This document shows positions 44,700 through 63,564 of a stretch of DNA of 64,000 nt, in pieces. The notes beneath the pieces are model-generated. The model saw only the letters and a list, made by a program, of their open reading frames with translations. It searched no databases and was not told the DNA's origin. The DNA is taken from contig NZ_LR746496.1 in NCBI RefSeq assembly GCF_902729405.1, positions 2,108,001-2,172,000 on the forward strand, written 5' to 3'. The stretch is from Acididesulfobacillus acetoxydans. GTDB lineage: Bacteria > Bacillota > Desulfitobacteriia > Desulfitobacteriales > Desulfitobacteriaceae. Position numbers and translations under genes: made by a program. Position 1 is the first letter of the stretch. The number at the start of each line of letters is the position of its first letter.

Positions 44700-44704
44700 G
44701 TGAG

Positions 44705-45073
44705 ATGATGGTGGGCCGGGTGATCGGGACGGTGGTGGCGACCCGAAAAAGCGACGCCTTGGTGGGTCAAAAACTGTTGGTGCTCCAACCGTTACACTCT
44801 TCACGGGAACAGGATCCCTCTTTGGCACAGGGTGCGGCGCTACCGGATATACCAGTGCAGGATGTCCCGATGCAGGGTGGGCCGGTTGAGAATGCGTTTC
44901 CACCTGACGCGGTCGTCGCGGTCGATACGGTGGGAGCCGGGGTGGGGGAAACGGTGCTTGTGGCGCTGGGAAGTGCTGCCCGCAAAGCTTTGTCCCGCCC
45001 GGAGGCACCCGTCGATGCGGCGATCGTGGGGATTGTCGACAGTATAAGAATAGCGGGCAGGGAGCAAGGGTGA
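44705..45073 (+). CDS. BMC-P vertex protein (EutN/CcmL family) with insertion
   Basis: Pentameric vertex protein that caps the corners of the shell. The start VGRVIGTVVATRKSDALVGQKLLVLQP and the end VAVDTVGAGVGETVLVALGSAARKA plus VDAAIVGIVDSI are typical of the family. Between them lies an insert of about 30 residues (SSREQDPSLAQ through AFPPDA) absent from usual ~90-aa homologues. Given the EutN fold, the insert would be a surface loop. The start overlaps the pduL stop region; ATG at 44705 or 44708 fits the GGGGAG site. Confidence 0.92.
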   Translation: MMVGRVIGTVVATRKSDALVGQKLLVLQPLHSSREQDPSLAQGAALPDIPVQDVPMQGGPVENAFPPDAVVAVDTVGAGVGETVLVALGSAARKALSRPEAPVDAAIVGIVDSIRIAGREQG

Positions 45074-45079
45074 TGGACG

Positions 45080-46537
45080 ATGCAAATTAGCGAGGATAAA
45101 ATTGCCCTCATTGTAGGTAAAGTATTGGAGCAAATTCGGGAGCAGGCGGGAAGTCCATTTTCCCTGCCAATTTCCCAGCCCGGCGGGCAAAACGCCCAGC
45201 CCAGTGGAGAGAACATTCGGGCCAACGGGGAGTGGGGCGTGTTTCATGACATTGAGCAGGCGATGCGGGCGGTTACGGAGGCGCAACGGGAACTTGTGAA
45301 GATCAGCCTGGAAAGACGGGCCGAGTTCCTGGACGCCTTGCGCCGGAGCGCCATCGACCACGCCAAAGAGTGGGCAAGGCTGGCCCATGAAGAAACGGGT
45401 ATGGGGAGAGTGAGCGACAAGACCCAGAAAAACATCAATTCGGCGCGTCTCACCCCCGGGCTCGAAGATCTAAGGACGGAATCCGCGACAGGGGACAAAG
45501 GGGCGGTGTTGATCGAAAGGGCGCCCTATGGAGTCATCGCTTCGATCGAGCCGGCCACGCATCCGGTGGCTTGTCTCATCAATCACGCCATCTCCATGCT
45601 GGCGGGAGGCAACTCCATCTTCTTTTTGCCTCATCCCAGCGGCTTACGTTGTGCTCAGGCCGTAGTGAGGGCTTTTAATCAAGCGATTGTGGAGCGGGAC
45701 GGTCCGGCCAATCTTCTGGTGGTCTTGGATGGGGTCAACATGGACGACCTCAAAGCTGTGCTCAAGCACCCCGGCATTGATCTCATCGTCGCGACCGGCG
45801 GACCGGCCGTGGTGGAGATGAGTTTATCGAGCGGCAAGAAAGCCATTGGGGCCGGACCGGGAAATCCGCCCGTTGTGGTGGATGAGACGGCCGACGCGGT
45901 GCAGGCGGCGAGAGATATTGTCGTGGGGCATTCTTTTGATAATAATCTTTTATGTATTGCTGAAAAAGAAATCATTGCCGTGGATTGCAAAGCTGACCGC
46001 TTGTTGGCGGAATTGGAGAAACAGCCTACCTACCGGCTGGCGGGCAAGGACATTGACAGGCTGACGTCTCTGGTGACCAAGAATGGTGAAGTCAACCGCA
46101 AATACGTGGGTCAAAACGCCAGCTTCATTCTTAGGGAACTGGGGATCGAAGCCGGTGACGAGATACGAACGATTATCATGGAGGTGCCGAAATCTCACCC
46201 CCTGGTGAAAATCGAGCAAATGATGCCGATTCTGCCGTTGGTACGGGTGCCGAATTTCGAAGCAGCTTTGAAACTGGCGCTGGAAGCGGAACAGGGCTTC
46301 GGGCACACGGCCATGATTCATTCTCAGAACCTGGACCACATCACCCGCTATGCCCGGGCGATGGATACCACTTTTGTGGTGGCGAACGCTCCCTCCTCGG
46401 CTGGGTTGGCTGTGGAAGGAGAGGGAGTGTACTCCCATACCATTGCCAGTCCGACGGGTGAAGGGGTGGCAACTCCGCGGACTTACACGCGTGAGCGGAG
46501 ACTAGCGATCGGACGCCGGGCATTTAGGTTCGTCTAG
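45080..46537 (+). CDS. pduP: CoA-acylating aldehyde dehydrogenase, PduP-like
   Basis: This enzyme oxidises an aldehyde with NAD and CoA to acyl-CoA inside the shell. The 485-aa protein has an N-terminal encapsulation-type helix (ISEDKIALIVGKVLEQIREQ) followed by a Gly/Pro/Asn-rich linker (residues 24-50). The catalytic domain includes ATHPVACLINHAISMLAGGN, ATGGPAVVEMSLSSGKKAIG and the nucleophile Cys in SFDNNLLCIAEKE. Because the aldolase yields lactaldehyde, the predicted product is lactoyl-CoA. It lies six bases after the vertex gene. Confidence 0.94.
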   Translation: MQISEDKIALIVGKVLEQIREQAGSPFSLPISQPGGQNAQPSGENIRANGEWGVFHDIEQAMRAVTEAQRELVKISLERRAEFLDALRRSAIDHAKEWARLAHEETGMGRVSDKTQKNINSARLTPGLEDLRTESATGDKGAVLIERAPYGVIASIEPATHPVACLINHAISMLAGGNSIFFLPHPSGLRCAQAVVRAFNQAIVERDGPANLLVVLDGVNMDDLKAVLKHPGIDLIVATGGPAVVEMSLSSGKKAIGAGPGNPPVVVDETADAVQAARDIVVGHSFDNNLLCIAEKEIIAVDCKADRLLAELEKQPTYRLAGKDIDRLTSLVTKNGEVNRKYVGQNASFILRELGIEAGDEIRTIIMEVPKSHPLVKIEQMMPILPLVRVPNFEAALKLALEAEQGFGHTAMIHSQNLDHITRYARAMDTTFVVANAPSSAGLAVEGEGVYSHTIASPTGEGVATPRTYTRERRLAIGRRAFRFV

Positions 46538-46746: not shown

Positions 46747-48321
46747 ATGGATTTAGCCGAATTGGCAGCCAAGGTTCAGGCCGCCGGGGTCGTCGGGGCT
46801 GGGGGCGGCGGTTTTCCGACTCATGTTAAGCTCAATAACCGCTGCGACACCGTGCTTGTCAACGGGGCTGAGTGCGAACCCTTGCTGCAGGTAGACCAAC
46901 AGTTGCTCGAGCGGGAGGCTCCGGTACTTGTTGACACCCTCGCCTCGATCGTGGAGTCGACTGGGGCCGGCCAAGGGATCCTGGCGCTGAAAGCCAAGTA
47001 CAAGGCGGCCCGGGTTGCACTGGAAGGGGCACTTACCGGAAGAGACCATTCCCTATGCGCGGGCCGTCACTCTGCAGTTGGGGAGGGTTATTCCCCGGCC
47101 GAAGGCAGTCATTTCGCGTCCAAAGAGGGTCATTCCCTGCCTGCGGACAATCATGCGGCATCCGCTGAAGGCCACTGCACATCCGGAGAAGGTCGTTCCC
47201 CTGCCGGGGAGGGTTACCTCGTACCTAAAGGCAGTCGGTCCTCAGCAGGGACAGGTTATCTTACGACCGGAGAAAGTTGTTCCCGGGTGGGACGGGGTCG
47301 TTTAGCGGTCTGTCCATTAGAAGATTTTTACCCGGCTGGGGATGAGCAGGTCTTGGTCTATGAAGTTTTGGGCCGGGTGGTGCCTCAGGGGGGAATTCCC
47401 TTGCACGTGGGCGTGATCGTGCTCAACGTGGAAACCCTTCTGAACATCGGGAAAGCCTTGGCCGGTCAGTCAGTGACGCATAAATATGTCAGCGTGGTCG
47501 GGGCCGTGGCGAATCCGCTCACCGTTTGCGTTCCGGTCGGGACCCCGGTGGCTGAGCTCCTGGCTATGGCCGGAGGGAGCAGGGCAGGCAAATACCGGGT
47601 GCTGGACGGGGGTCCCATGATGGGGCGCGAGGTGCGGAATCTGAATCAGGGAATTAGCAAAACGACTAAGGGATTATTGGTACTTCCCGCGAATCATCCG
47701 CTCTGGCGCCACAAAGAGATTCCCACGGGAATTGCCCTGAAGCGGGCCATGTCGGTCTGTTGCCAGTGTTTTGCTTGCACTGACCTCTGTCCCAGATATC
47801 TGCTGGGACATACGATTGAACCCCATCGGGTCATGCGCAGCCTCGTGCACAATGTCAGCACAGACGCTCGCGGGGTCACGGGAGCCCAGTACTGTTCAGA
47901 ATGCGGAGTTTGTGATAATTACGCCTGTCCCATGGATATCTCTCCCCGTTTGATCAACCAGGCTGTAAAGCGCGAACTGGCGCAACAAGGCTTTCGCCCG
48001 GTAGTGGGAGGGGAAGGCCGTCCCAGAGCCTCAAGGTCGGAGCGGAAGGTTCCTGTGAAGCGTTTAATCTCCCGCCTGGGGTTGGATAATTATCACAGGC
48101 CGGCTCCTTTAATGGATGCACCCGGCGAACCGACCCAGGTCATCCTGGAATTGAAGCAGCACGCGGGGGCTCCCTGCTATCCTGTCGTTCAGCCGGGGGC
48201 CAAAGTAGAGATGGGTCAAGTGGTGGCCGAGGTTCCGGAGGGACAATTGGGCAGCCGCCTTCATGCCGGTATCACGGGCACTGTGCTCAGGGTTTCCCCT
48301 CAGATCGTGATTGCGAGGTAA
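46747..48321 (+). CDS. pduS: PduS-like flavin/iron-sulfur oxidoreductase with heptad-repeat insert
   Basis: RnfC/PduS-family protein (524 aa) thought to pass electrons from NADH or a B12 system across the shell. The FMN/NADH-binding start GVVGAGGGGFPTHVK, DFYPAGDEQVLVYEVLG and two ferredoxin motifs (Cys338-x2-341-x2-344-x3-348-Pro and Cys383-x2-386-x2-389-x4-394-Pro) are intact, as is the C-terminal barrel-sandwich domain. Residues 98-187 are an extra low-complexity block of heptads, absent from known PduS. No B12 diol dehydratase is encoded here, so a cobalamin reductase role is less likely than NADH reoxidation with PduT. Confidence 0.9.
   Translation: MDLAELAAKVQAAGVVGAGGGGFPTHVKLNNRCDTVLVNGAECEPLLQVDQQLLEREAPVLVDTLASIVESTGAGQGILALKAKYKAARVALEGALTGRDHSLCAGRHSAVGEGYSPAEGSHFASKEGHSLPADNHAASAEGHCTSGEGRSPAGEGYLVPKGSRSSAGTGYLTTGESCSRVGRGRLAVCPLEDFYPAGDEQVLVYEVLGRVVPQGGIPLHVGVIVLNVETLLNIGKALAGQSVTHKYVSVVGAVANPLTVCVPVGTPVAELLAMAGGSRAGKYRVLDGGPMMGREVRNLNQGISKTTKGLLVLPANHPLWRHKEIPTGIALKRAMSVCCQCFACTDLCPRYLLGHTIEPHRVMRSLVHNVSTDARGVTGAQYCSECGVCDNYACPMDISPRLINQAVKRELAQQGFRPVVGGEGRPRASRSERKVPVKRLISRLGLDNYHRPAPLMDAPGEPTQVILELKQHAGAPCYPVVQPGAKVEMGQVVAEVPEGQLGSRLHAGITGTVLRVSPQIVIAR
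47038..47307 (+). repeat. 21-bp in-frame repeats encoding heptads in pduS
   Basis: About 13 degenerate 21-bp units code for heptapeptides such as EGHSLPA, EGHCTSG, EGRSPAG and TGYLTTG (consensus Glu/Gly-Gly-His/Tyr/Arg-Ser-x-x-Gly/Ala). The frame is kept throughout and the flanking PduS sequence is intact on both sides. Confidence 0.85.
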
Positions 48322-48588: not shown

Positions 48589-48704
48589 GGAGACTTGAGG
48601 GTTTCGCTTCTGACCATGTTCGCAAGGTAAAAGGTAAGAGCGTGGGTCAGGGTGGAGAAAACAGCAAAGGTCAGGTTGGAGAAAATAGTGAGGGGGTGAG
48701 GAAC

Positions 48705-49253
48705 GTGAAGAAAGCCGTTGGCCTGTTGGAGTACCGTAGTGTCACCCGGGGCATTGTCGGAGCAGACACGGTGGTTAAAGCGGCCAGTGTGGAACTCCTG
48801 CAGGCGGCTACCGTCTGTCCCGGCAAATTCCTGGTCTTGTTTGCCGGTGATGTGGGTTCGGTTCAGAGTGCCATGGAAGCGGGGATAGCGGCCAGTGAGG
48901 GAGTGCTCATCGACCACTTCCTGCTGGCCAATGTCCATGAAGCTGTCTTTCCCGCTCTGTCCGCCACTTCAATCATTGAGCCCAAGGGCGCCCTGGGCGT
49001 GATCGAAACCTTTACGGCCGCCGCCGCCGTCGTTGCGGGGGATATCGCGGTCAAGACCGCTCAGGTGGACCTGATTGAGATTAGATTGGCCCGCGGCCTG
49101 GGGGGTAAATCCTTTGTCACCTTCTGCGGGGATGTTGGATCGGTAGCCATGGCGGTGGAAGCTGTGGCCAAGTCGCTCGCGGCTGAGGGGACACTTCTGG
49201 ATAAAGCGGTGCTGCCGGCTCCCCACCGGGAAGTGTGGGAGAGATTGGTGTAG
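48705..49253 (+). CDS. pduT: BMC-T trimeric shell protein, PduT-like
   Basis: Two tandem BMC domains (residues about 5-85 and 95-175 of 182) make a pseudohexameric trimer. The sequence matches PduT: LEYRSVTRGIVGADTVVKAA, the Cys in ATVCPGKFLVLFAGDVGS that in PduT ligates a [4Fe-4S] cluster at the trimer pore, then ALGVIETFTAAAAVVAGD and VLPAPHREVWERL. It is expected to conduct electrons through the shell together with PduS. GTG at 48705 is chosen because AGGGGGTGAGG precedes it; an upstream start at 48642 would add residues outside the family. Confidence 0.93.
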   Translation: MKKAVGLLEYRSVTRGIVGADTVVKAASVELLQAATVCPGKFLVLFAGDVGSVQSAMEAGIAASEGVLIDHFLLANVHEAVFPALSATSIIEPKGALGVIETFTAAAAVVAGDIAVKTAQVDLIEIRLARGLGGKSFVTFCGDVGSVAMAVEAVAKSLAAEGTLLDKAVLPAPHREVWERLV

Positions 49254-49311: not shown

Positions 49312-50580
49312 GTGCGAATCTTAGTGCTTAATAGCGGAGGGACTTCCATTAAATATCAACTATTTGGATTCAGGGGTGGGGAGCTTGTTACTGTGGCTAA
49401 AGGGGCCGTGGAAAGCATTGGCCAGCCGCATTCCCTCTTGAAGTTCGATGTCCCCAAGCAAGCTCCACTCAGGAAAGAGATTGAAGCTAAGGACCATGCG
49501 GGAGGGCTTGAGCAGGCCCTGCGTCTTCTGGTTGATCCTGAGATCGGTCCTCTTTCCTCCTACAGTGAGATCGACGCGGTCGGGCACAGAGTCGTCCAGG
49601 CGGGAGAGAAGTTCCGCGGCACTTTTCTGATCGACGATGCGCTTTTAATGGCTTTACGAGAGCATAGCGAATTGGCTCCTTTACACAACCCGCCCAATAT
49701 CAGGGGTATAGAGGCCTGTCGCCGGCTCATGCCCGGGGTTCCCCAAGTGGCGGTATTCGATAACGCTTTCCATAAAGATTTGCCTGATTATGCCTACATC
49801 TACGCTTTGCCTTACGAATATTACGAAAAATACGGCGTGCGGCGTTACGGCTTTCATGGTATTTCCTTTAAATATATGACAGAGAGGGCGGCTGAACTCC
49901 TCAAGGTGGATGTCAGCCAAAAACGAATTATTTCCTTGATGCTGGGAAGCGGGACGACCATCAACGCCTTGGCTTACGGACATTCGGTCGATGTCTCCAC
50001 AGGGTTAAGCCCCACAGAAGGTTTGGTCCAATCAACCCGCTGCGGAGATCTGGATCCGTTCATCATTACCCACATCATGCGCAAGGAAGGACTCTCCCTG
50101 GAGGAAATGGACGAAGTACTGAGCAAACGCAGCGGCTGGCTGGGCATTTCCGGCGTAAGCAATGATTTGCGTTTGGTTGAAGAGGCTGCGGAAGAGGGTA
50201 ACCCTCAGGCCAAGCTGGCTCTCCGGGCTTTCACCTATCGGGCCAAAAAATATATCGGTGCTTATGCCGCAGCCATGGGAGGGCTGGATTTAGTGCTCTT
50301 CGCCGGGGGAGTCGGGGAAAACAGCTCTGTCGTACGGGCTGAGATTTGCCGGGGTTTGGAGTTCCTGGGCATAGAACTTGACGAAGAACGCAATGCTCAA
50401 CTCAAGGGAGAAGGCCTTGTTTCCCGGCCGGAGGGGTCCGTGCCTGTCCTGGTTGTGGACACGAACGAAGAGGCCGTGATTGCTCAGGAAACGTACGCGC
50501 TTGTAACGGTTAAAAGCATGCTCGAGCTTAAATGTGTGGATCAAAGCAGCAGGGTGTTGAACCTGGAATCGGGGGGATAA
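49312..50580 (+). CDS. Acetate/propionate kinase family protein with altered active site
   Basis: Kinase expected to turn the PduL acyl-phosphate into acid and ATP. The 422-aa protein keeps NSGG-TSIKYQ, GHRVVQAG, LHNPPN, VAVFDNAFH, RRYGFHG, TRCGDLDP and LFAGGVGEN. Three normally conserved sites differ: the usual Gly-Ser-Ser-Ser near residue 10 is Gly-Gly-Thr-Ser, the second His of FHGTSH is Phe186, and the His of HLGNG is Met210. It also has a C-terminal tail of about 20 residues. It may use a bulkier acyl-phosphate such as lactyl-phosphate, or be impaired. GTG start. Confidence 0.85.
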   Translation: MRILVLNSGGTSIKYQLFGFRGGELVTVAKGAVESIGQPHSLLKFDVPKQAPLRKEIEAKDHAGGLEQALRLLVDPEIGPLSSYSEIDAVGHRVVQAGEKFRGTFLIDDALLMALREHSELAPLHNPPNIRGIEACRRLMPGVPQVAVFDNAFHKDLPDYAYIYALPYEYYEKYGVRRYGFHGISFKYMTERAAELLKVDVSQKRIISLMLGSGTTINALAYGHSVDVSTGLSPTEGLVQSTRCGDLDPFIITHIMRKEGLSLEEMDEVLSKRSGWLGISGVSNDLRLVEEAAEEGNPQAKLALRAFTYRAKKYIGAYAAAMGGLDLVLFAGGVGENSSVVRAEICRGLEFLGIELDEERNAQLKGEGLVSRPEGSVPVLVVDTNEEAVIAQETYALVTVKSMLELKCVDQSSRVLNLESGG

Positions 50581-50738: not shown

Positions 50739-51527
50739 GTGTTGGCAGAGGATCGAAGAAAAAAAATCGTAGAGATGTTGGATGAAGGTGGAAGTGTTAA
50801 AGTGAGCCGACTTGCCGGCACTTTTCAAGTGACGGAGGAAACCATTAGGCGAGATTTGGAACTATTGGAGAAGGACGGCTATCTGACGCGCACACATGGG
50901 GGAGCAGTCAAGAGTTCTCTCGATCAGCAGGAAATTGCCTTCTATATTCGCAATATGCGCAACCGTGAGGAGAAGGAAGCCATCGGTCGAAAATCTCTGG
51001 AGTACATTCAACCCGGGGAGGTTATTGCTCTGGATGCCAGCACTACGGCTCTGCAGATTGCTCGTCTCCTAAAAGAGAACCCAATCAAAGATGTGGTTGT
51101 GATCACACATGCTCTCAAAGTTATTATGACACTTGCAGAGAGTCCGACCATTACGGTCATCAGTACGGGGGGGGTGCTGGAGCAGAGAACGATGTCATTC
51201 GTCGGTTCCTTGGCGGAAAATGCGCTCTCAAACTACAACATTAAAAAGGCTTTCGTGTCATGTAAAGGGGTCACGTTGGAAGAGGGTATCACAGAATCTA
51301 CCGATGTGCAGGCAAAAATTAAGGAAGAGATTGTGAAAGGAGCTAAGGAGGTGTTCCTTCTCGCGGACCATGACAAGTTTGGGCAGGCGGCGTTGGCGAC
51401 CGTCGCTCCTGTCACGGTTGTGCAAAAATTGATTACGGATGATAAGACACCTTTGCCGGAGATAGAACGTTATCGGTCAGAGGGAATAGATGTTGTTGCT
51501 GTTGACAGTGGAGAGGGAGGGAGGTGA
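50739..51527 (+). CDS. DeoR-family transcriptional regulator
   Basis: DeoR-type sugar regulator of 262 aa. The N-terminal winged helix reads SVKVSRLAGTFQVTEETIRRDLELLEKDGYLTRTHGGA; the C-terminal DeoRC sensor domain contains ALDASTTALQIARLL, VITHALKV and STGGVLEQRTMSFVG, a ribose-5-phosphate-isomerase-like fold that binds phosphorylated sugars. It lies between the shell operon and the rhamnose genes and probably represses both until rhamnulose 1-phosphate or DHAP accumulates. DeoR regulators are standard members of fucose/rhamnose compartment loci. GTG start at 50739. Confidence 0.93.
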   Translation: MLAEDRRKKIVEMLDEGGSVKVSRLAGTFQVTEETIRRDLELLEKDGYLTRTHGGAVKSSLDQQEIAFYIRNMRNREEKEAIGRKSLEYIQPGEVIALDASTTALQIARLLKENPIKDVVVITHALKVIMTLAESPTITVISTGGVLEQRTMSFVGSLAENALSNYNIKKAFVSCKGVTLEEGITESTDVQAKIKEEIVKGAKEVFLLADHDKFGQAALATVAPVTVVQKLITDDKTPLPEIERYRSEGIDVVAVDSGEGGR

Positions 51528-51534: not shown

Positions 51535-51909
51535 ATGGGCAAAGAAGGTGCTAAGGTCTGGTTTATACCTGATGCCTATCTGCCAAGCAGTGGTTCGGGA
51601 GCCAAATATGAAAGCCATGAAGCGATCTGCGTTCTAAATACGTCGAACATCAACGCTAATCTGAGGTTGACCTTTTATTATGAAGACCGGGATCCGCTGC
51701 AAGACGTCCTTGTTAATGTGGGGGCTAAGCGTTCAAAGCATATCCGCTTGGACCATCCGGAAGAACTGGGTGGAGTTCGGCTAAGGCGGGACGTTCCTTA
51801 CAGTATACGGGTGGAGAGTGATGCGTATGTTTCGCTGCAATACTCCCGTCTGGACGTAACCCAACCCAATTATGCCCTTATGACGACTATACCGTATTTT
51901 GAAGGTTAG
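51535..51909 (+). CDS. Sensory rhodopsin transducer family protein
   Basis: The 124-aa protein matches the family of the Anabaena sensory rhodopsin transducer (PF07100), a beta-sandwich tetramer. Family segments are VWFIPDAYLPS, SHEAICVLNTS, LTFYYEDRDPL, HIRLDHPEEL and SLQYSRLDVTQPNYALMTTI. No rhodopsin is present; outside cyanobacteria this family is found in sugar-utilisation clusters, where a sugar-binding or regulatory role has been suggested. It lies seven bases behind the DeoR gene with GGAGGGAGGTGA, so the two are co-expressed. Confidence 0.82.
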   Translation: MGKEGAKVWFIPDAYLPSSGSGAKYESHEAICVLNTSNINANLRLTFYYEDRDPLQDVLVNVGAKRSKHIRLDHPEELGGVRLRRDVPYSIRVESDAYVSLQYSRLDVTQPNYALMTTIPYFEG

Positions 51910-52052: not shown

Positions 52053-53150
52053 GTGAAAGAAATGACTGCAAGAGAGCGTGTTGTTAATGCCATGGAGTTT
52101 AAACCTGTCGATAGAATACCTCTATTTGATCTCGTCCAAAATATACCCTTAATCGAGTATTGTACCGGGGAAAGGCTCACATTGAAGAATGGGTTGGACT
52201 TACTCTGCAAAACAATAAGTATGAAACTGGATGCTACGCGTGGTATTGCTTCCCCAGTGGAAGAAAAGACTTTTGCCGATAAAGACGGATTTATTTATAA
52301 ACAGGAGTGGTGGACCACTTGGCTGGTGGACCGCCCGTATAAGGACGTACAAGGTCTTGTAAATTATATTAAAAAAAATATAGAAGAGCTAGAAGATTAT
52401 AGGCCGGGTGATATTTGGACATTTGCCGGAAAGGCAAATGTTTGGGGTCAAAGTGACAAGAGCCCACGTGAGCAGTTCATGGAACTACAAGAAAAGTTAG
52501 GAGATACAGTATTATTCCCCTCTGAAAGTCCTGTTGGGCTTGACACGGCTTGGATACGTGCAGGTATGGAATTGTTTAGCTACGCGTACGTTGAGGATCC
52601 CGACATCATATCCTCTTGGCTCCAAGCATTGGCGGATTTCGAGGTACGCCGCATTCATGATGTTGCAGATGTGGACCTGTCTCCGGTCACCCTGGTATAT
52701 GCAGATTTGGCATTTAAGACCGGTTTGATGTTCTCTCCGAAATTTCTCCGGAAGGAATTTTTTCCTCGCCTTAAGCAACTGGTTGATGCCTGGCATTCTC
52801 ACGGAATTAAGGTCATTTACCACTCAGATGGTAATCTGATGGAGGTTATGGATGATTTTGTCGCAGCCGGGGTTGACGGAATCAACCCTGTTGAGACAAT
52901 TGCCGGGATGGATATAGGGGTAATTCGCCAGAGGTATCCGCAGCTTACCATGATGGGTGGTATTGATTGCAGCCAGCTTCTGCCTTATGGAACTGAAGAG
53001 GAAGTAGAAGCGGAGGTCAAAAAGGCGATCGACCAGGGCTTCAGCGGTGGGGGTTTGCTTTTGGGCTCAACTACCGAGATTCACCCGGACTGTAAAGTGG
53101 AAAATGTTCTCAAAATGTGGAACGTTGCCACTACTTATAGCCGGCGGTGA
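52053..53150 (+). CDS. UroD-fold methyltransferase (MtaA/CmuA-like)
   Basis: Uroporphyrinogen decarboxylase-fold protein of 365 aa. Together with a following corrinoid protein gene, this marks a corrinoid-dependent methyltransferase rather than a haem enzyme. It begins TARERVVNAMEFKPVDRIP, as in this family. The region equivalent to the MtaA zinc site reads IYHSDGNLMEVMDDFVAAG, with Asp where MtaA has Cys, and later STTEIHPDC with one Cys. The ligand set therefore differs from classical MtaA, and it may be the substrate-demethylating partner (MT1). GTG start at 52053 after GAGAGGAG. Function in the rhamnose cluster is not established. Confidence 0.8.
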   Translation: MKEMTARERVVNAMEFKPVDRIPLFDLVQNIPLIEYCTGERLTLKNGLDLLCKTISMKLDATRGIASPVEEKTFADKDGFIYKQEWWTTWLVDRPYKDVQGLVNYIKKNIEELEDYRPGDIWTFAGKANVWGQSDKSPREQFMELQEKLGDTVLFPSESPVGLDTAWIRAGMELFSYAYVEDPDIISSWLQALADFEVRRIHDVADVDLSPVTLVYADLAFKTGLMFSPKFLRKEFFPRLKQLVDAWHSHGIKVIYHSDGNLMEVMDDFVAAGVDGINPVETIAGMDIGVIRQRYPQLTMMGGIDCSQLLPYGTEEEVEAEVKKAIDQGFSGGGLLLGSTTEIHPDCKVENVLKMWNVATTYSRR

Positions 53151-53215
53151 TGAAGGTAGTGGATTAAGTTTTCTCCGACTTGTTAAAATTTGTCATGAGT
53201 GAGGGGGTTACATAT

Positions 53216-53839
53216 ATGCTAGTATTTCAGGAAATCGCTGAGGCAGTAATTTGCGGGAACGCCAAAAAAGTTAAGGAGTATGCCGAAAGGGCCTTGGAAG
53301 ACGGCGCCTTACCCCAATCCATTGTGAATGAGGGCCTAATAGCGGGGATGAATGTGGTTGGAATGAAATTCAAAAACAACGAGGTTTACGTACCGGAAGT
53401 TCTAATCTCCGCTCGGGCTATGCATGCGGGGATGGATGTTGTCAAACCGCTGTTATCTGCTTCCGAGCTACAAGACAAAGGGACAGTCTTAATCGGTACT
53501 GTCAAGGGAGACCTGCATGATATCGGTAAGAACTTGGTGCGCATGATGTTGGAGGGAGCGGGGTATAGGGTTATTGATCTGGGTGTAGATGTCGCTCCGG
53601 AAAAGTTTGTCCAGGTTGTGCAGGAGCAGAAACCCCAGGTTGTTGGGCTCTCAGCTCTGCTAACCACAACCATGGTCAACATGAGGAGTACTATCGAACG
53701 GCTCAAATCCTACCCGGTTAAGGTGATGATTGGCGGCGCTCCGGTGACGCAGAAATTCGCCGACGAAATAGGAGCAGATGCCTACGCTCCCGACGCGGCC
53801 TCAGCCGTAGAAAAGGCTGGCCAACTTTTAGCTTCGTGA
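53216..53839 (+). CDS. Methyltransferase corrinoid protein (MtaC/MtbC-like)
   Basis: The 207-aa protein has an N-terminal helical B12-binding cap (residues 1-85, with [23 protein letters not shown]) and a C-terminal cobalamin domain with the base-off signature [19 protein letters not shown], then [11 protein letters not shown] and [19 protein letters not shown]. It carries the methyl group on cobalt between two methyltransferases. The ATG at 53216 is preferred (GAGGGGG site) over an upstream TTG. It sits between the UroD-fold gene and the isomerase and ends four bases inside the latter's longest reading. A second methyltransferase and a reductive activator are not in the window. Confidence 0.92.
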
Positions 53840-53907
53840 GTCCGCATGGTAATGCCTTAAACTTTACTTTACTGCGGAAAATACGCGGGGGGGATAGAGG
53901 ATCAATG

Positions 53908-55119
53908 ATGACTGAGGATGAAATAAAACTTTGGGTAAAAGTACAGGACAGCAAGGGTGTGGATATTGAAAGCGTCAAAACGCGCCTAAAGGCTATGGTA
54001 ATTGAAACACCCACCTGGGGTTATGGAGATTCCGGCACGCGCTTTAAAGTTTTTAAACAGCAAGGGGCAGCGCAAAACCCATACGAAAAGCTGGAAGATG
54101 CGGCGGAGGTGCATCGCCTAACAGGAGTTTGCCCGAAGGTCGCAGTGCACATACCGTGGGACAAGGTCGATGATTACGGTGCTTTAAGACGATATGCCCT
54201 GGATCTTGGTCTTCGTATTGGGGCGGTGAATCCGAACCTTTTTCAAGATGAAGATTATGCACTCGGCTCACTATGCCACCCGCGCCCCGAGGTGCGGCAA
54301 AAAGCCCGTTCCCATATGCTTGAGTGCGTTGAAATCATGAAAAAGGTTGGCTCTAGCATCTTGAGCTTGTGGTTGGCCGATGGCACTAATTACCCCGGCC
54401 AAGACGATTTTCGTAAGCGCAGGCACTACCTTATGGACGCGTTAACAGAGGTTTATCAGGTTCTGGCTCCGGAAGCTCGCCTGTTGATAGAGTATAAAAT
54501 GTTTGAACCAGCTTTTTACCACACGGATCTGGCAGACTGGGGTATGGCTATTAGCTATGCTGAGAAATTAGGGAACAAAGCGCAAGTACTGGTGGACCTG
54601 GGGCATCATGCGCAAGGTACGAATGTAGCGCACATTGTGGCTACTTTGTTGGATGAAGGCAAGTTGGGCGGTTTCCACTTTAATAACCGTAAATATGCGG
54701 ATGACGACTTAATGGTGGGTGCCATCGCTCCTTATGAGTTGTTTTTGATTGCGCTGGAATTGGTGAGCGGGGAGCAGGATCCGGCCACCTCGGAGTGCGC
54801 GGGGAGGGTTTCTTATATGATCGATCAGTCCCATAATATTGAACCAAAAATTTCGGCTATGATCCGCTCCGTGATGAATATTCAAACCGCATTTGCCAAA
54901 GCCTTGTTGGTTCCCCAGGGGGAATTGAGGCAAGCCCAGGCAGCAGGTGACGTTATCACGGCTGAATCGCTAGTTAAGGGGGCCTTCGAAACAGACGTGC
55001 GTCCACTTTTAGCCTTGGTTCGCAAAGAGATGGGTTTACACACTGATCCTCTGAAAGCTTACGCGGAAGGTACTTACATTAAGACGATTTTGGCCAGAGA
55101 ATTTCGTGGTCAGGGGTGA
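53908..55119 (+). CDS. rhaI: L-rhamnose isomerase, RhaI type
   Basis: Sugar isomerase (403 aa) of the xylose-isomerase-like TIM-barrel group that converts L-rhamnose to L-rhamnulose. It is the RhaI type known from Pseudomonas stutzeri and Gram-positive bacteria rather than E. coli RhaA. Typical segments are [47 protein letters not shown] and [21 protein letters not shown] with metal ligands, then [18 protein letters not shown] at 53908 or 53905 fits the AGAGG site. A diverged copy of its last ~20 codons lies at 59989. Confidence 0.88.
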
Positions 55120-55250: not shown

Positions 55251-56765
55251 TTGTGTGACTGCGTTCTCCAAATCAGGGGCATGACAAAAGTTTTTTCTGG
55301 GGTCAAGGCACTCGACAGCGTGAGTTTCGACCTGAAGGCTGGAGAGGTTCATGCTTTGATGGGTGAAAATGGGGCGGGAAAATCCACATTCATAAAGGTT
55401 ATTACTGGGGTTTATCAACCAGACGGTGGTGTGATTATTCTCAATGGGAGACAAGTACAAATTAATAATCCTAAAGATGCCCAGAAATTTGGAATAGCTG
55501 CCATCTATCAGCATGTTACCTGTTACCCCGACTTGACGGTGACAGAAAATATCTTTATGGACCATTTGGAGGTTTCGCCCAAAACCGGAAGGATTTTATG
55601 GAAGAGAATGCATGCTAAGGCTGCCGATCTGTTACGCCACCTGAGTTCGGAAATTGATCCCAAGACGTTAATGTCCGAGCTAAGTGTAGCACAACAGCAG
55701 ATTATTGAAATCGCTAAGGCTATTTCGACCCATGCAAACATTATTATAATGGACGAACCAACCGCGGCCTTGACAAAAAATGAGAGCGAAGATCTTTATA
55801 AAATTACGGACCAACTCCGTAATAGCGGAGCTTCCATTATCTTCATTTCCCATCGTTTCGAAGATTTTCACCGGGTTGCTGATCGCGTCACTATCTTAAG
55901 GGACTCCCAATACATTGGTACTTGGGGCGTTAATGAAATATCTGAGGAGGAACTGATTGTTGCAATGGTCGGCAGGGAAATAAAACAGATGTTTCCGCCA
56001 AAGACGGCTGTTGCTAGAGAAGAAATTCTTCGGGTCAAAGGCCTTACAAAAACGGGCTACTTTTCCGATGTTTCGATTACTGTAAAAAGGGGAGAGATCG
56101 TGGCTCTGACAGGTCTGGTCGGGGCCGGCAGGACGGAAATCTGCGAGACACTTTTTGGTATTATGAAGCCTGATAAGGGTGAAGTGTATTTTGAGAACAA
56201 AAAAATCAGGATAGTTGATCCCAATACTTCCATGAAACTCGGGATCGGATACCTTCCGGAGGATAGACAGGTACAGGGCTTAATTATGAATTGGAGTATT
56301 CAGAAAAACATTACCGTTTCCAGGCTGGAGATGTTTTCGAACCGTGGATGGCTCAGGCCTGATTTGGAAAGGTCGAAGGCGGAAGAACTAGCAAGCATGG
56401 TGAACGTGAAGGCAAAAAGTGTAAATGCTCCGGCGTTGTCTCTTTCAGGCGGTAACCAGCAAAAGGTAATCGTAGCTAAGCTACTTTTGGCAGATCTTAA
56501 ACTAATCATCCTTGACGAGCCGACAAAAGGTATCGATGTAGGAGCTAAATATGCCATTTATGAGATCATGGATAACCTTGCGGCGCAGGGGTACGGTATC
56601 CTCATGGTTTCCTCCGAGTTACCGGAAGTGCTGGGAATGGCTGACAGAATCGTTGTAATACGGCGCGGCAGAGTCTCAAAGACATTTTCCAGGAGGGATG
56701 CCACTCCGGAAAAAGTATTAGAAGCAGCTATGCCGATTGAAACTGCAGCATTGTGTCAGGAGTGA
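55251..56765 (+). CDS. Sugar ABC transporter ATP-binding protein (RhaT-like)
   Basis: Double-ABC ATPase of 504 aa of the CUT2 family (as RbsA, RhaT). The first Walker A is GENGAGKST, with Walker B IIIMDEPTAAL; the second half has the atypical P-loop GLVGAGRTE usual for the family, signature LSGGNQQK and LIILDEPTKG. It energises import of the deoxysugar. TTG start at 55251 follows GGAGG. Order ATPase-permease-permease-binding protein matches rhamnose importers of Rhizobium (RhaT, P, Q, S in a different order). Confidence 0.92.
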   Translation: MCDCVLQIRGMTKVFSGVKALDSVSFDLKAGEVHALMGENGAGKSTFIKVITGVYQPDGGVIILNGRQVQINNPKDAQKFGIAAIYQHVTCYPDLTVTENIFMDHLEVSPKTGRILWKRMHAKAADLLRHLSSEIDPKTLMSELSVAQQQIIEIAKAISTHANIIIMDEPTAALTKNESEDLYKITDQLRNSGASIIFISHRFEDFHRVADRVTILRDSQYIGTWGVNEISEEELIVAMVGREIKQMFPPKTAVAREEILRVKGLTKTGYFSDVSITVKRGEIVALTGLVGAGRTEICETLFGIMKPDKGEVYFENKKIRIVDPNTSMKLGIGYLPEDRQVQGLIMNWSIQKNITVSRLEMFSNRGWLRPDLERSKAEELASMVNVKAKSVNAPALSLSGGNQQKVIVAKLLLADLKLIILDEPTKGIDVGAKYAIYEIMDNLAAQGYGILMVSSELPEVLGMADRIVVIRRGRVSKTFSRRDATPEKVLEAAMPIETAALCQE

Positions 56766-56773
56766 TACTAGAA

Positions 56774-57775
56774 ATGGGAAAAAGGACAAAAAACCTTGGA
56801 AGGTTCCAGCGTGATTGGTCACGCCAGGTTGGGCTTACCCTTTTTATAATTGCGGTTTCGGTTGCGGTCGATATCCGAAATCCTAGATTTTTCTCAGTTG
56901 TGAATTTGAGCGATATGATTTCGAACACGGCAATTCTTTCCATTCTTGCCATTGGTATGATGATTGTAATCATAACTGCAGGTATAGACCTCTCCATTGC
57001 ATCAACAATGGCACTTTCCGGCATGGTCACGGCTCTCACTGTGCAGGCGAACAGGGGTTTGAGTCCAATGCTGGCACTACTCATAGGATTGGCGGTCGGG
57101 GTCCTGTGCGGGGGCGTTATCAGTGTCTTTGTGGTACGGTTCAGCGTAGCACCTATTATAGCGACGCTTGGCTTCATGAATGCCTATCGAGGTCTCACCT
57201 ATCTTGTCAGCCATTCAAACTGGGTGGGGCCGGGTCAGATGTCTAACGGTTTCATGATGATTGCAAGAGGCAAGATACTCGGAATTAATAACCTTGTGAT
57301 CATCGCCATGCTCCTTTATCTCTTGGCTTTCTATTTCCTTAATTATACTAGATTCGGTCGTCAGATTTACGCAGTCGGTTCCAATGCAGAATCTGCAAAA
57401 GTAAGTGGCATTAACACTAACCACGTACTATTTACAGTCTATGTGATTATGGGAGCTTTTGCGGGATTGGCAGGTGTTTTATGGGTGTCTAAATTTGCCA
57501 GCGCACAGGGAGATACCGCTCTGGGTTATGAAATGAATGTCATCGCTGCATGCGTGTTAGGCGGGGTTAGCCTTAGGGGCGGATCCGGCAAATTATCCGG
57601 TGTTCTGCTTGGTTCGTTGCTCCTTGGGATTCTCAACGACGCCTTACCGCTGATCGATGTTTCTCCGTTTTGGCAGTCGGCGATACAGGGCGCGATCATA
57701 CTAGTCGCGGTCATTAGCAACGTCTTTTTCAAACGCAGAGTCGAGTATAAAACTCTGGCAAGGAGGAATATCTGA
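56774..57775 (+). CDS. Sugar ABC transporter permease (RhaP-like)
   Basis: CUT2-family permease of 333 aa with eight to ten hydrophobic segments. The family motif is ITAGIDLSIASTMALSGMVTAL, followed by ATLGFMNAYRG, IYAVGSNAESAKVSGIN and VIAACVLGGVSLRGGSGKL. ATG at 56774 with AGGAG is chosen over a GTG inside the ATPase gene. It pairs with the next permease to form the channel. Confidence 0.9.
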   Translation: MGKRTKNLGRFQRDWSRQVGLTLFIIAVSVAVDIRNPRFFSVVNLSDMISNTAILSILAIGMMIVIITAGIDLSIASTMALSGMVTALTVQANRGLSPMLALLIGLAVGVLCGGVISVFVVRFSVAPIIATLGFMNAYRGLTYLVSHSNWVGPGQMSNGFMMIARGKILGINNLVIIAMLLYLLAFYFLNYTRFGRQIYAVGSNAESAKVSGINTNHVLFTVYVIMGAFAGLAGVLWVSKFASAQGDTALGYEMNVIAACVLGGVSLRGGSGKLSGVLLGSLLLGILNDALPLIDVSPFWQSAIQGAIILVAVISNVFFKRRVEYKTLARRNI

Positions 57776-57778: not shown

Positions 57779-58786
57779 ATGCCAAAAAGGAAAGAACTGA
57801 TCACTGGCAGGAAATCATTTTCATTCAAACGCTTTTTTCTTCAGTGGGAATGGTTGCTGGTACTTGCCTTTATAGCAGTCAATATTTTTGACGCTGCGAT
57901 TTCACCATATTTCCTTGACATGAATAATATCCTATCCTCAACCATGAATTTTCTTGACAATGCATTCATTGTTTTACCGATGGTTTTCGTGATCATGCTG
58001 GGGGAAATCGATATTTCTGTCGGCTCGACGGTTGCACTTTCAGCCGTTGTGATGGGGGTGTTTTACGACAAATTTCACACTCCCATGTGGCTCGCAGTAC
58101 TCATCTGTCTTGCCGTAGGGGCGTTATGCGGCCTTTTCAATGGTATGATTATCGTAAAGTTTAAAGAAATCGCACCAATGATTGTTACACTCAGTACTAT
58201 GACTATGTACCGTGGTATTGCACAAATTATAATAAGGGATCAGTCCGGTGGGAATTTCGCACCTTGGTTCAAATTTCTGAGCTGGGGATACCTAGGGTCC
58301 ATCCCTTTCATATTGGTAGTATTTGCAGTTGCGGCTGTCATTTTTGGATTGTTACTTCACAAAACGAACTTTGGCAGGCGGGTTTACGCAATCGGAAATA
58401 ACGAAATTGCCTCTTTGTATTCAGGCATACAAATTGGTCGCATCAAGTTAATTATTTATACGCTGACCGGTTTTATGTCAGGCGTCGCGGCCCTGTTTCT
58501 GTCCTCACGCATGGGCAGTACCCGCTCCGATATGGCTACGGGCTATGAATTGAACGCCATCGCGATGGTTGTGCTTGGCGGTGTGAATATTATGGGCGGG
58601 AGAGGACGGATGATCGGTGCGATTATTGCCGTTTTCATTATCGGTTTCCTGAAATACGGGCTAGGTCTTATCAACATGAGCTCGCAGGTTGTCTTGATCG
58701 TCATTGGTTTACTTCTAGCAGTGTCCGTGGCGCTACCGAATATCAAAAAAAGTGGCGGGAAGCAGAGAAAAACTGAAGAAGCCTGA
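57779..58786 (+). CDS. Sugar ABC transporter permease (RhaQ-like)
   Basis: Second CUT2 permease, 335 aa, three bases behind the first. Motifs: MLGEIDISVGSTVALSAVVMG, TLSTMTMYRGIAQIII, RRVYAIGNNEIASLYSGI and LNAIAMVVLGGVNIMGGRGR. AAGGAGG lies upstream. Two different permeases are characteristic of the rhamnose and autoinducer-2 subgroups of CUT2 importers, in contrast to the single RbsC. Confidence 0.9.
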   Translation: MPKRKELITGRKSFSFKRFFLQWEWLLVLAFIAVNIFDAAISPYFLDMNNILSSTMNFLDNAFIVLPMVFVIMLGEIDISVGSTVALSAVVMGVFYDKFHTPMWLAVLICLAVGALCGLFNGMIIVKFKEIAPMIVTLSTMTMYRGIAQIIIRDQSGGNFAPWFKFLSWGYLGSIPFILVVFAVAAVIFGLLLHKTNFGRRVYAIGNNEIASLYSGIQIGRIKLIIYTLTGFMSGVAALFLSSRMGSTRSDMATGYELNAIAMVVLGGVNIMGGRGRMIGAIIAVFIIGFLKYGLGLINMSSQVVLIVIGLLLAVSVALPNIKKSGGKQRKTEEA

Positions 58787-58846: not shown

Positions 58847-59914
58847 ATGAAAAGGAAAGGCGTCCTCGCTCTGATGCTTACATCAGCAATGCTTATGTTA
58901 AGCGTCGCCGGTTGTTCGGGTAACAAGCCGGTTGCAACGGAAAACGGTACATCATCCGGAAAGGGTACTAGTGCAAGTTCCAACCAAGTTTATGCCATTA
59001 TCGCGAAGAACACGGGTAATCCCTATAATCAGGCAGAGACCCAAGGTTTTCAGGATGCGGTCAAGGAATTTGGCGGAAAATCAATTGTTCGGGCTCCGGA
59101 GCAGCCAACTGCCGAAGGTCAAATAACGATTATCAATCAGCTTATTGCCCAGAAAGTAGCCTCAATTGCCATTGCTAGTAATGACGCGAACGCTTTAGAA
59201 CCGGTGTTGCAAAAAGCCATGTCAGCGGGTATCAAAGTTCTTTCCTGCGACTCAGCGGTAAACCCGGCCAGCCGCATGGTTCACGTGGACCAGGCCGATC
59301 CGGTAAAGATAGGCCAGGTTGAGGTGCAGGCAATGGGCAAAATGATGAATTATACTGGCGAGTTTGCCATACTTTCTGCGACATCTACGGCGGACAATCA
59401 GAACACCTGGATCAAATACATGAAGGAAGAACTAAAAAAACCTGAATATAAGAAAATGCGTCTTGTCAAAATTGCTTATGGCGACGATCTACCAGATAAG
59501 AGTACCTCCGAGACGGAGGCGCTGTTGCAATCTTATCCCAAGCTGAAGGGTATTATTTCCCCGACAACCGTGGGTATCGCGGCAGCCGCAAAGGTTCTTT
59601 CCGATAAAGGTCTTGCCGGAAAGGTATATTTGACAGGTCTGGGCTTACCTAGTCAGATGATCACGTACATCAAGAGCGGCGTTTGTCCGTGGATGTATCT
59701 CTGGAATCCAATTGATATCGGTTATATCACGGGCTATGTGTCCAAGGCCTTGGTTGACGGTACGATTACCGGCAAAATCGGTGACACTTTTACGGCGGGA
59801 CGGCTCGGAAAGTACACGGTTACGAAAGCCGCCGATGGCGGAACGGAAGTTCTGCTTGGACCTCCCTACAAGTTCGATAAAGCGAATATCGATCGGTGGG
59901 CAAAAGTGTATTAA
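58847..59914 (+). CDS. Sugar-binding lipoprotein (RhaS-like)
   Basis: Periplasmic-binding-protein-like lipoprotein (355 aa). The signal MKRKGVLALMLTSAMLMLSV ends in the lipobox AGCSG near residue 23, so it is attached to the outer face of the membrane. The mature part is a type I sugar-binding fold: YAIIAKNTGNPYNQAETQGF, NQLIAQKVASIAIASNDANA, VLSCDSAVNPASRMVHVDQA and GLGLPSQMITYIKSG. The pattern resembles RhaS and LsrB-like proteins. The ligand may be L-rhamnose or an O-methylated derivative. TAGGGGGT precedes the ATG. Confidence 0.9.
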   Translation: MKRKGVLALMLTSAMLMLSVAGCSGNKPVATENGTSSGKGTSASSNQVYAIIAKNTGNPYNQAETQGFQDAVKEFGGKSIVRAPEQPTAEGQITIINQLIAQKVASIAIASNDANALEPVLQKAMSAGIKVLSCDSAVNPASRMVHVDQADPVKIGQVEVQAMGKMMNYTGEFAILSATSTADNQNTWIKYMKEELKKPEYKKMRLVKIAYGDDLPDKSTSETEALLQSYPKLKGIISPTTVGIAAAAKVLSDKGLAGKVYLTGLGLPSQMITYIKSGVCPWMYLWNPIDIGYITGYVSKALVDGTITGKIGDTFTAGRLGKYTVTKAADGGTEVLLGPPYKFDKANIDRWAKVY

Positions 59915-60048: not shown

Positions 60049-60089
60049 ACGGATAGAGTGGGTGAGTTGACACACAAGGGGGGTTGACC

Positions 60090-61574
60090 GTGCCAAAGTG
60101 GCGTGGAATGGCAGCCGATCTGGGTGCAAGCAACGGACGTACCGTTTTAGGGGAGTATGATGGCGCAAAAGTCAGTTTGGCTGAAGTCAGCAGGTTCTCC
60201 AATGTGCCGATCAATTTAGGCGGTACACTTTATTGGAACTTTCTCGGCCTTTTCCGCGAGGTTGTAGCAGGTTTATCCAAAAGCTCAAGCCAAGGCAAGC
60301 CGCCCGTGAGCCTGGGAATAGACAGCTGGGCCGTTGATTTTGGCTTGCTTGATGCGAGTGGGGAGCTGATGCAAAACCCGAGGCACTACCGTGATCATCA
60401 CAATGAGGGTATGATGCAGGAGGTTTTTGCCCGGATTCCGGGTGCGATCGTATACGAACGCACCGGAATTCAACTGATGCAAATCAATACCCTATACCAG
60501 CTCATGTTTCTGCGCCTGTACCGGCCGGCATTGCTCCAGGGAGCTAAGGTTCTCTTGCTCTTTCCGGATCTGATGATCTATTTTCTGACGGGAGTCAAAA
60601 TTGCCGAGTTTACAAATGCGACTACAACTCAGTTATTCAATCCGTACCTGGGCACCTGGGATCAGGAACTGATGTCAAAACTGGACTTGCCCAGACAGAT
60701 CTTCGCCCCGATCGTTTCTCCGTTCCAGGTTATCGGTCCGCTTCGCCCTGATATAGTTTCCGCTAACCGAACTGAGAAGCTCTCAGTGGTGACTGTAGGA
60801 GAACATGACACAGCGTCGGCGGTTTTTGCCATTCCGTATGAGGCAGAGAACTACGCCTATATTTCAAGTGGCACCTGGTCTTTGGTAGGTACCGTGTCTG
60901 AAAAACCTCTCATTACCGAACTGACGGCGAAATACAATTTTACGAATGAGGGTGGGGTTAACGGAAATTACCGGGTGCTCAAGAATGTGATGGGTCTCTG
61001 GCTGCTGCAAGAAGTCCTACGACGACTTGACCAGGCTGGGCAAAGTTTCAGCTACTCGGACTTGTCAGCCTTAGCTTTAAAGGCACAGGCCTTCGAATGT
61101 GTGATCGATCCGGATGGTTCAGACTTCCTGGCCCCCGTGAATATGATCGAAGCGATTCAGGCTTACTGTTTGCGGACCCACCAAAGCAAACCGTCGAATC
61201 CGGGGGCAATAAGCCGGGTAATCTTTGAGAGCCTGGCACTTAAGTATCGTTTCGTCATTGAGAAACTTGAGCAGGTTACCGGGCGTTCTCTGGAAGTCAT
61301 TCACATTGTCGGTGGCGGGGTTCATAATGAGCTACTGTGCCAAATGACGGCTGACGCGACCCATAAACCGGTTTTGGCCGGACCGGCAGAAGCAACCATT
61401 ATCGGTAATATCTGCGCTCAGCTCATCGCCGTCAAGGAGCTTGGGCCGGCGGAGGTGCCGTTGCTTGTGAGAAATTCTTTTCCGCCCCAGGTATACACGC
61501 CGCAGAAGGACCGGTCAGCGTGGGATCAGGCTTATCTCAAACTTTTGAGTCTCATGGGAGAGCGGGGAGCTTGA
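60090..61574 (+). CDS. rhaB: L-rhamnulokinase
   Basis: FGGY-family kinase (494 aa) that phosphorylates L-rhamnulose at O1 with ATP. Rhamnulokinase-specific segments are AADLGASNGRTVLGEYDG, LGIDSWAVDFGLLDASGEL, HYRDHHNEGMM, TQLFNPYLGTWDQ, VGEHDTASAVFAIP, YISSGTWSLVGTV, NFTNEGGVNGNYRVLKNVMG and GGGVHNELLCQMTADATHKP. GTG at 60090 is preferred, since AAGGGGGG ends seven bases before it; a TTG six bases upstream is too close to that site. Its product feeds the encapsulated aldolase. Confidence 0.93.
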   Translation: MPKWRGMAADLGASNGRTVLGEYDGAKVSLAEVSRFSNVPINLGGTLYWNFLGLFREVVAGLSKSSSQGKPPVSLGIDSWAVDFGLLDASGELMQNPRHYRDHHNEGMMQEVFARIPGAIVYERTGIQLMQINTLYQLMFLRLYRPALLQGAKVLLLFPDLMIYFLTGVKIAEFTNATTTQLFNPYLGTWDQELMSKLDLPRQIFAPIVSPFQVIGPLRPDIVSANRTEKLSVVTVGEHDTASAVFAIPYEAENYAYISSGTWSLVGTVSEKPLITELTAKYNFTNEGGVNGNYRVLKNVMGLWLLQEVLRRLDQAGQSFSYSDLSALALKAQAFECVIDPDGSDFLAPVNMIEAIQAYCLRTHQSKPSNPGAISRVIFESLALKYRFVIEKLEQVTGRSLEVIHIVGGGVHNELLCQMTADATHKPVLAGPAEATIIGNICAQLIAVKELGPAEVPLLVRNSFPPQVYTPQKDRSAWDQAYLKLLSLMGERGA

Positions 61575-61728: not shown

Positions 61729-61823
61729 TTGCGACAGGTAAAACATTGTCAAGAAGATTGCGATCGCCATTCAGAACAGCAATCCAAGCCCATGAAGAAG
61801 AGATGAGGGAGGAAGGAACCCGA

Positions 61824-63272: not shown

Positions 63273-63303
63273 AATCAGGTGCTGATAAAGAAAGAAAGGA
63301 AAA

Positions 63304-63334
63304 CAAAAACCGGCGGTGTGCTTCCGCCGGTTTT
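63304..63334 (+). terminator. Intrinsic terminator of the sugar island
   Basis: AAAAACCGGCGG and CCGCCGGTTTTT pair around TGTGCTT, followed by TTGTC. It lies 32 bases behind aldA. Confidence 0.92.
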
Positions 63335-63564
63335 TGTCTATTTGTCTGTTCTCTTTCGACATGGGTATACTTTAGTTCTTCCTTCCTATTCCGGGGCTAT
63401 CCGTAATTTTTTAACGTTGATATCGGTGAGTAGGCATAATGTCCCGTAAGCAGAGATTTCCCGGTCCAGCTCATGGGCTTCATTTCCCCAGTTGTGTGTT
63501 AGCCCTCTTGAAAATGAGCCCACGCTCAATAGAAATGGCACCAAGAAATATTTAAAGAGTTACT

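Follow-up and report, generated by a model that had tools for sequence, protein, structure and literature searches.

What does a rhamnose operon do with a corrinoid-dependent methyltransferase? The question is raised by a stretch of 64,000 nucleotides from Acididesulfobacillus acetoxydans (assembly GCF_902729405.1, contig NZ_LR746496.1, positions 2,108,001 to 2,172,000), hereafter the window, in which the genes of a UroD-fold methyltransferase (UroD1, 52053-53150) and an MtgC/MtaC-like corrinoid protein (53216-53839) lie directly before the L-rhamnose isomerase gene rhaI (53908-55119), all on the + strand. Our answer is that the pair probably equips the rhamnose operon with an accessory O-demethylase that depends on corrinoid, which would act on O-methyl-rhamnose to give rhamnose and methyl-tetrahydrofolate. 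This answer is built on gene content, protein families, a recurrent linkage to rhamnose genes, the active-site pattern and the presence of acetyl-CoA synthase (ACS), a pterin-binding methyltransferase (MeTr) and RACo-type activators, all of which were observed directly.

Identity of the gene pair

As in the aryl methyl ether O-demethylases of the Odm and Mtv type, the first methyltransferase (MT1) belongs to the UroD superfamily. UroD1 was found to match PF01208 at 61.1 bits (cut-off 23.9) and falls within the UroD tree; its start codon is GTG, preceded by GAGAGGAGAG. The cognate corrinoid protein expected of an Odm/Mtv-type system is also present, with PF02607 and PF02310 domains and a DLHDIG sequence that forms the DxHxxG motif. 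Among the NCBIfam models it comes closest to MtgC and to 'methyltransferase cognate corrinoid protein', and it scores below the cut-offs of both. RhaI passes TIGR02635 (607.7 bits against a cut-off of 531.35). An earlier note on this DNA had placed a UroD-fold methyltransferase gene and a corrinoid gene directly before rhaI on the same strand, and the domain matches and coordinates bear this out. The four-base overlap it described between the corrinoid gene and rhaI is probably an annotation artefact of the longest frame, which opens at 53836, because the N-termini of RhaI homologues line up with the ATG at 53908. With the start at or near this position, a gap of about 68 nt follows the corrinoid stop codon.

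A role for UroD1 as a heme-pathway UroD was considered and rejected, since its 61 bits on PF01208 extend over the C-terminal half only and other genes of the genome reach 208-241 bits. Against the thiol methyltransferase models MtaA and MtbA its scores are far under the cut-offs. Searched by sequence and by profile, the PDB yielded methylcobalamin:coenzyme M (CoM) methyltransferase 4ay7 as the sole relevant relative, with weak scores, and no aryl O-demethylase structure for comparison.

Active site of UroD1

When UroD1 was aligned with MtaA-type proteins of the source genome, the zinc-site H-x-C was observed to be replaced by H257-S-D259 (HSDG) and the second cysteine by T341, which is followed by E342. 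Residues H257, D259, E342 and H344 are common to all UroD1-family rows of the alignment. The His-Cys-Cys zinc site of thiol and selenol methyltransferases (MtaA, MtbA and Mlp) is absent, as both cysteines are gone in seven of the seven rows, and the residues found in its place (H257-x-D259, T341-E342) agree with the Odm/Mtv-type enzymes in being other than His-Cys-Cys. A preprint by Kountz and Balskus assigned His-Cys-Cys sites to the sulfur and selenium methyltransferases of the superfamily and carboxylate or non-coordinating replacements to its O-methyltransferases (PMC10418091). The carboxylate pattern of UroD1 fits the O-demethylases and, on sequence grounds, the gene pair bears the marks of such a system. 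UroD2, a second UroD-fold protein found in related loci, retains H-x-C with its second cysteine replaced by Ala-His.

The earlier note had read the change from HxC to HSDG as the sign of a substrate-specific MT1. This stands in so far as HSDG without the second cysteine fits an O-demethylase, but the motif does not appear to be specific for sugars, because HSDG is also found in a UroD of the source genome that is likely to be of the aryl type and belongs to a family-conserved cluster of UroD, corrinoid protein and major facilitator superfamily (MFS) transporter genes.

Linkage to rhamnose genes

Conserved linkage in relatives, on which the earlier note had staked its proposal, was found: two UroD clades occur in rhamnose and bacterial microcompartment (BMC) operons of three genomes, and elsewhere UroD1 orthologues lie beside alpha-L-rhamnosidases. 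The source genome (4.52 Mb) and Paradesulfitobacterium ferrireducens fall into one (GTDB-style) family. In Paradesulfitobacterium, an uninterrupted same-strand run leads from rhaI, rhaB, the aldolase and BMC genes through ackA, deoR, a gene of the Anabaena sensory rhodopsin transducer (ASRT) family and a sugar ATP-binding cassette (ABC) transporter to UroD1 (87% identity), UroD2, a corrinoid protein, a pterin MeTr, RACo and two LUD proteins. G001, a congener of the source organism, has the order BMC-ASRT-ABC-rhaB-rhaI-UroD2-corrinoid protein-aldA, without UroD1. Genome G041 carries a rha/BMC locus with a glycoside hydrolase family 78 (GH78) rhamnosidase and neither a UroD nor a corrinoid gene, so the UroD/corrinoid module is an accessory of such loci. 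Overall, the module was observed in three of the four readable rha/BMC loci of the class, in a different gene order each time; this count leaves out genome G015, where the contig with rhaI is too short for a reading.

Outside the class, UroD1 of an Acidobacteriota metagenome-assembled genome (MAG) is flanked by GH106 and GH78 alpha-L-rhamnosidases. In genome G376, a UroD1 fragment lies next to a GH106-type protein and a second UroD; it appears to be a decayed copy, as its N-terminal half is missing and stop codons lie upstream. UroD1 is present in only 2 and RhaI in 5 of the 82 class genomes, yet in both of the former UroD1 lies within the rhamnose run, and the gene pair is therefore linked to rhamnose catabolism beyond chance. 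A scan with exact peptide seeds over 84,980 species, one genome per species, gave three orthologues, namely those of Paradesulfitobacterium (87%), a Bacillota MAG (78%) and the Acidobacteriota MAG (61%). The 398-genome phylum sample added two relatives of 41% (G061 and G331) and the G376 fragment (58-60% identity). No further UroD1 was found in 297 Acidobacteriota genomes, and a plasmid search returned fragments of 26-30% only. RhaI is encoded in all five genomes with UroD1 proper.

In a maximum-likelihood tree of 40 UroD proteins, UroD1 (support 100/99 with its 41% relatives) stands apart from UroD2 (100/100), with long branches between. These deeply separate clades suggest that the rhamnose linkage arose more than once. 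Between the window and Paradesulfitobacterium, UroD1 has a ratio of nonsynonymous to synonymous differences (pN/pS) of 0.10 (pN 0.083; pS 0.82, with synonymous sites saturated), which indicates strong purifying selection. Recent horizontal transfer as the cause of the high UroD1 identity was rejected, because pS is saturated at 0.82 while pN is 0.083.

Proposed pathway

The substrate, the direction of methyl transfer and the route of electrons and carbon are our proposals. We name the sugar as rhamnose because the neighbours are RhaI, RhaS, RhaB and rhamnosidases, and its modification as a methyl ether because of the demethylase signature. Alpha-L-rhamnosidases would release O-methylated L-rhamnose, for example 3-O- or 2-O-methyl-rhamnose, and the sugar ABC transporter would import it. 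UroD1, as MT1, would then bind O-methyl-rhamnose and methylate the Co(I) corrinoid carried by the 53216-53839 protein; a pterin-binding methyltransferase encoded elsewhere in the genome would pass the methyl group on to tetrahydrofolate. Corrinoid that becomes oxidised would be rescued by RACo-type activators. The freed rhamnose would pass through RhaI, RhaB and the aldolase, the lactaldehyde would be processed by the microcompartment and AldA, and the methyl group would enter the Wood-Ljungdahl pathway.

A 2-O-methyl group on rhamnose would block the isomerase and a 4-O-methyl group the aldolase, so demethylation before RhaI is the economical order; a 3-O-methyl group would yield methylated dihydroxyacetone phosphate after aldolase cleavage. 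Suitable substrates occur in nature. Arabinogalactan-proteins of ferns, mosses and liverworts carry terminal 3-O-methyl-L-rhamnose (PMC6918356), and bacteria have 2-O-methyl-rhamnose in exopolymers, S-layers and spores (PMC11320575).

Partners for the later steps were observed in the source genome, which encodes ACS, four RACo-type activators and, at locus L045, a MeTr that adjoins corrinoid proteins. An activator of the kind found in Odm/Mtv-type systems also lies inside the Paradesulfitobacterium cluster, as does a pterin-binding second methyltransferase (MT2). The route from methyl-corrinoid through methyl-tetrahydrofolate to acetyl-CoA is therefore available in the genome, and we infer its use here. 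Nothing in the analysis places the UroD1/corrinoid pair inside the microcompartment.

Alternative explanations

Several observations weigh against demethylation of O-methyl-rhamnose by this pair. The window operon itself has neither MeTr nor RACo, and UroD1-family genes are scarce (2 of the 82 class genomes and, with relatives of at least 40% counted, 4 of the 398 sampled phylum genomes). The 78% orthologue, in G061, adjoins an ABC transporter and no rhamnose gene, with RhaI encoded elsewhere in that genome. CUT2 transporters in the source genome also adjoin non-sugar methyltransferases, which makes transporter linkage alone weak. The window corrinoid protein shares 84% identity with one from another locus of its own genome against 72-73% with the rhamnose-locus proteins of relatives; the tree is poorly resolved there, and this relationship suggests that UroD/corrinoid modules were assembled more than once. 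Furthermore, AlphaFold2 on four orthologues reached a mean pLDDT of 54, too poor for pocket modelling.

An aryl methyl ether might instead arrive together with rhamnose, for example when a plant rhamnoside, such as a hesperidin-type flavonoid, has a methoxylated aglycone. A rhamnosidase would free both parts and so account for the co-regulation, and this would agree with UroD1 being flanked by rhamnosidases in two distant genomes and with HSDG in the likely aryl-type UroD of the source genome. Those UroD-family corrinoid O-demethylases that are known to have been characterised do use aryl methyl ethers (PMC13222342; PMC8630106). However, none of the rhamnose loci contains an aromatic-degradation gene or aromatic transporter, and the conserved UroD-corrinoid-MFS cluster, which looks aryl-type, forms a clade of its own. 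UroD1 and UroD2 relatives are also found next to iolB, galactose, fucose-isomerase and nucleoside genes, a setting in which a methoxylated aromatic is not expected. We regard the aryl substrate as unlikely and as a weaker explanation than O-methyl-rhamnose.

It is similarly improbable that the pair acts on O-methyl-fucose, O-methyl-xylose, O-methyl-galactose, methyl glycosides or some other methylated sugar or glycan that simply occurs alongside rhamnose in nature. Rhamnogalacturonan II contains methylated fucose and xylose, and related UroD proteins adjoin fucose-isomerase-like and galactose genes, but the directly adjacent enzymes of UroD1 are rhamnose-specific (RhaI, RhaS and RhaB) and the glycosidases adjoining its orthologues are alpha-L-rhamnosidases. 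O-methyl-fucose in particular is less likely because both adjacent genes and glycosidases are specific for rhamnose. With about 16 UroD-family genes and many corrinoid proteins in the genome, some would lie near sugar genes by chance, and a general methyltransferase pair of the methylamine, thiol or haloalkane type could have no connection with rhamnose at all. Such a coincidence is very improbable given that two separate UroD clades repeatedly show the linkage, in varied gene orders and in another phylum, that the His-Cys-Cys site of thiol methyltransferases is missing and that UroD1 is under strong purifying selection.

Comparison with known systems

The proposed O-methyl-rhamnose demethylase resembles OdmABCD/VdmB of Acetobacterium dehalogenans and MtvABC of Moorella thermoacetica, which combine a UroD-superfamily MT1, a corrinoid protein, a pterin-binding MT2 and an ATP-driven activator, a set that occurs together in the Paradesulfitobacterium locus. 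Their substrates are phenolic or benzoic methyl ethers, whereas here the genes lie in sugar operons, UroD1 forms its own clade and MT2 and the activator are encoded outside the window operon. The archaeal MtoABCD system of methoxydotrophy (PMC8630106) also has an MtvB-related MT1, a corrinoid protein and an adjacent transporter, but this is an MFS transporter, the substrates are aromatic and the methyl group passes to tetrahydromethanopterin. CdmBCA (PMC13222342) shares a UroD-superfamily MT1, a corrinoid protein and MT2, and differs in its haloalkane substrate, chloromethane, and in having no linkage to sugar genes. Type 1 mlp clusters and soluble CoM methyltransferases (PMC10418091) share the UroD fold and a corrinoid protein; they have His-Cys-Cys zinc sites and a sulfur/selenium context, whereas UroD1 lacks both cysteines.

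The P450 demethylase of 6-O-methyl-D-galactose from marine Bacteroidota (PMC10033563), the known case of methoxy-sugar demethylation by microbes that we came across, likewise removes a sugar methyl ether in a polysaccharide-utilisation context, but it is aerobic and oxidative, needs oxygen, produces formaldehyde and uses no corrinoid. PVM and PVM-like fucose-rhamnose microcompartments (PMC4207490) share the class II aldolase, DeoR regulator, acetate kinase and shell genes, and their survey nowhere mentions a methyltransferase or corrinoid gene. Judged by its sequences, the present system appears to be a variant of the known corrinoid O-demethylases, and we found no description of its proposed substrate class. 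Searches of open-licence papers turned up no account of a corrinoid system that demethylates sugars, methyl-rhamnose or methylated inositols.

Related clusters and wider pattern

It is possible, though we put it forward tentatively, that UroD1 and UroD2 lie within a broad superclade of carbohydrate O-demethylases and that anaerobes have a general oxygen-free route from sugar methyl groups to one-carbon metabolism. Neighbours in this putative superclade include rhamnose/BMC, rhamnosidase, IolB-family, galactose, fucose-isomerase-like, FGGY kinase and deoC/pyrimidine phosphorylase genes. About 22 of the 34 UroD genes whose surroundings were read have a sugar-catabolic neighbour, and others lie with MFS transporters or no sugar gene; this count was made by eye on a set chosen by similarity to UroD1 and UroD2 and is a lead, not a rate. 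Polysaccharides of plants, algae and bacteria are commonly capped by methylated sugars, and aerobic P450 systems are known to remove sugar methyl ethers. If the pair does act on O-methyl-rhamnose, this would add an oxygen-free route of demethylation and extend corrinoid methyltransferases to a new class of substrates, and anaerobes would use both the sugar and the methyl of methylated rhamnose as food. In wetlands where mosses and ferns abound it would also supply methyl groups for acetogenesis, and it would give testable substrate predictions for many UroD genes annotated merely as 'uroporphyrinogen decarboxylase'.

Several individual clusters were noticed. In G439, a 65% UroD2 relative (L095:17811-18908, - strand) lies in a nucleoside-catabolism run with a PnrA-type transporter, deoC, pyrimidine nucleoside phosphorylase and a phosphopentomutase-like metalloenzyme, with a PfkB kinase and an Indigoidine_A/PsuG-like gene near it; it could demethylate 2'-O-methyl-nucleosides. 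In G061, a UroD1 relative of about 40% and a second UroD (L050:1824-6183, - strand) adjoin a KduI/IolB-family gene, a Cgl0159-type aldolase and a phosphofructokinase, where demethylation of O-methyl-inositol is possible, and fucose-isomerase-like and GH31 genes also lie beside a UroD relative in this genome. The source genome has a candidate second sugar-type demethylase cluster (L046:372-7980; C1:1707.9-1715.5 kb) with ABC permeases, an FGGY kinase, two UroD genes, an alcohol dehydrogenase and the corrinoid protein that shares 84% identity with the window one. At L043:8684-18500, its UroD genes and a CUT2 transporter adjoin aldose-epimerase-like, GalT and GalK genes, and use of O-methyl-galactose is possible. 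These organisms probably demethylate aryl methyl ethers with the UroD-corrinoid-MFS cluster that has HSDG (L047:1696-5528, - strand, also L011 and L012).

Other genes of the rhamnose run

All genes of the run are on the + strand, with the BMC operon upstream of the UroD1, corrinoid and rhaI genes and rhaTPQS-type ABC genes, rhaB and aldA downstream. The class II aldolase, PduL, acylating aldehyde dehydrogenase, BMC-H/T/P shell genes and DeoR regulator together identify a rhamnose/fucose (PVM-like) microcompartment locus. The run opens with the aldolase, which is of the rhamnulose-/fuculose-1-phosphate type (41912-42763, PF00596), followed by a BMC-H shell protein (42865-43152, PF00936), the phosphotransacylase PduL (44019-44699, PF06130), an EutN/CcmL-type BMC pentamer (44696-45073, PF03319), a PduP-type CoA-acylating aldehyde dehydrogenase (45080-46537, PF00171) whose position is kept in related rha/BMC loci, and a PduS-type flavin/FeS protein (46747-48321; PF01512, SLBB, RnfC_N). 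A PduT-type BMC-T shell protein (48642-49253, PF00936 in two stretches), an acetate kinase-type acyl kinase (49312-50580, PF00871), the DeoR-family regulator (50739-51527; PF00455, PF08220) and a small ASRT-family protein (51535-51909, PF07100) come next. In the three rha/BMC loci of the window, Paradesulfitobacterium and G001, an ASRT-family protein comes after DeoR or AckA. In the window, UroD1 and the corrinoid protein are placed between this DeoR/ASRT pair and rhaI.

Downstream of rhaI are a CUT2-type sugar ABC transporter ATPase (55251-56765, PF00005 twice), a permease (56753-57775, PF02653) and an adjoining reading frame that resembles permeases of related loci and is taken as the second permease (57779-58786). 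The rhamnose-binding protein RhaS (58847-59914, TIGR02637) and the lactaldehyde-type aldehyde dehydrogenase AldA (61746-63272, NF007497) score above their cut-offs, and rhamnulokinase RhaB between them (60084-61574) has TIGR02627 as its best match, below cut-off. The run ends at a strong bidirectional terminator-like hairpin (63301-63339); a promoter scan yielded no more sites than shuffled sequence.

LUD-domain (LutA/B-like) proteins close the rha/BMC loci of G041 (L070:4020-6233) and Paradesulfitobacterium (L013:15808-18550) and are absent from the window run; their position suggests that lactate oxidation is tied to the microcompartment. In PduS of the window, a long insertion of imperfect Gly/Ser-rich repeats (47000-47330) was observed within the FMN-binding domain. 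It is seemingly absent from relatives, whose proteins are shorter with fewer residues aligned. EutN (44696-45073) also appears to be lengthened.

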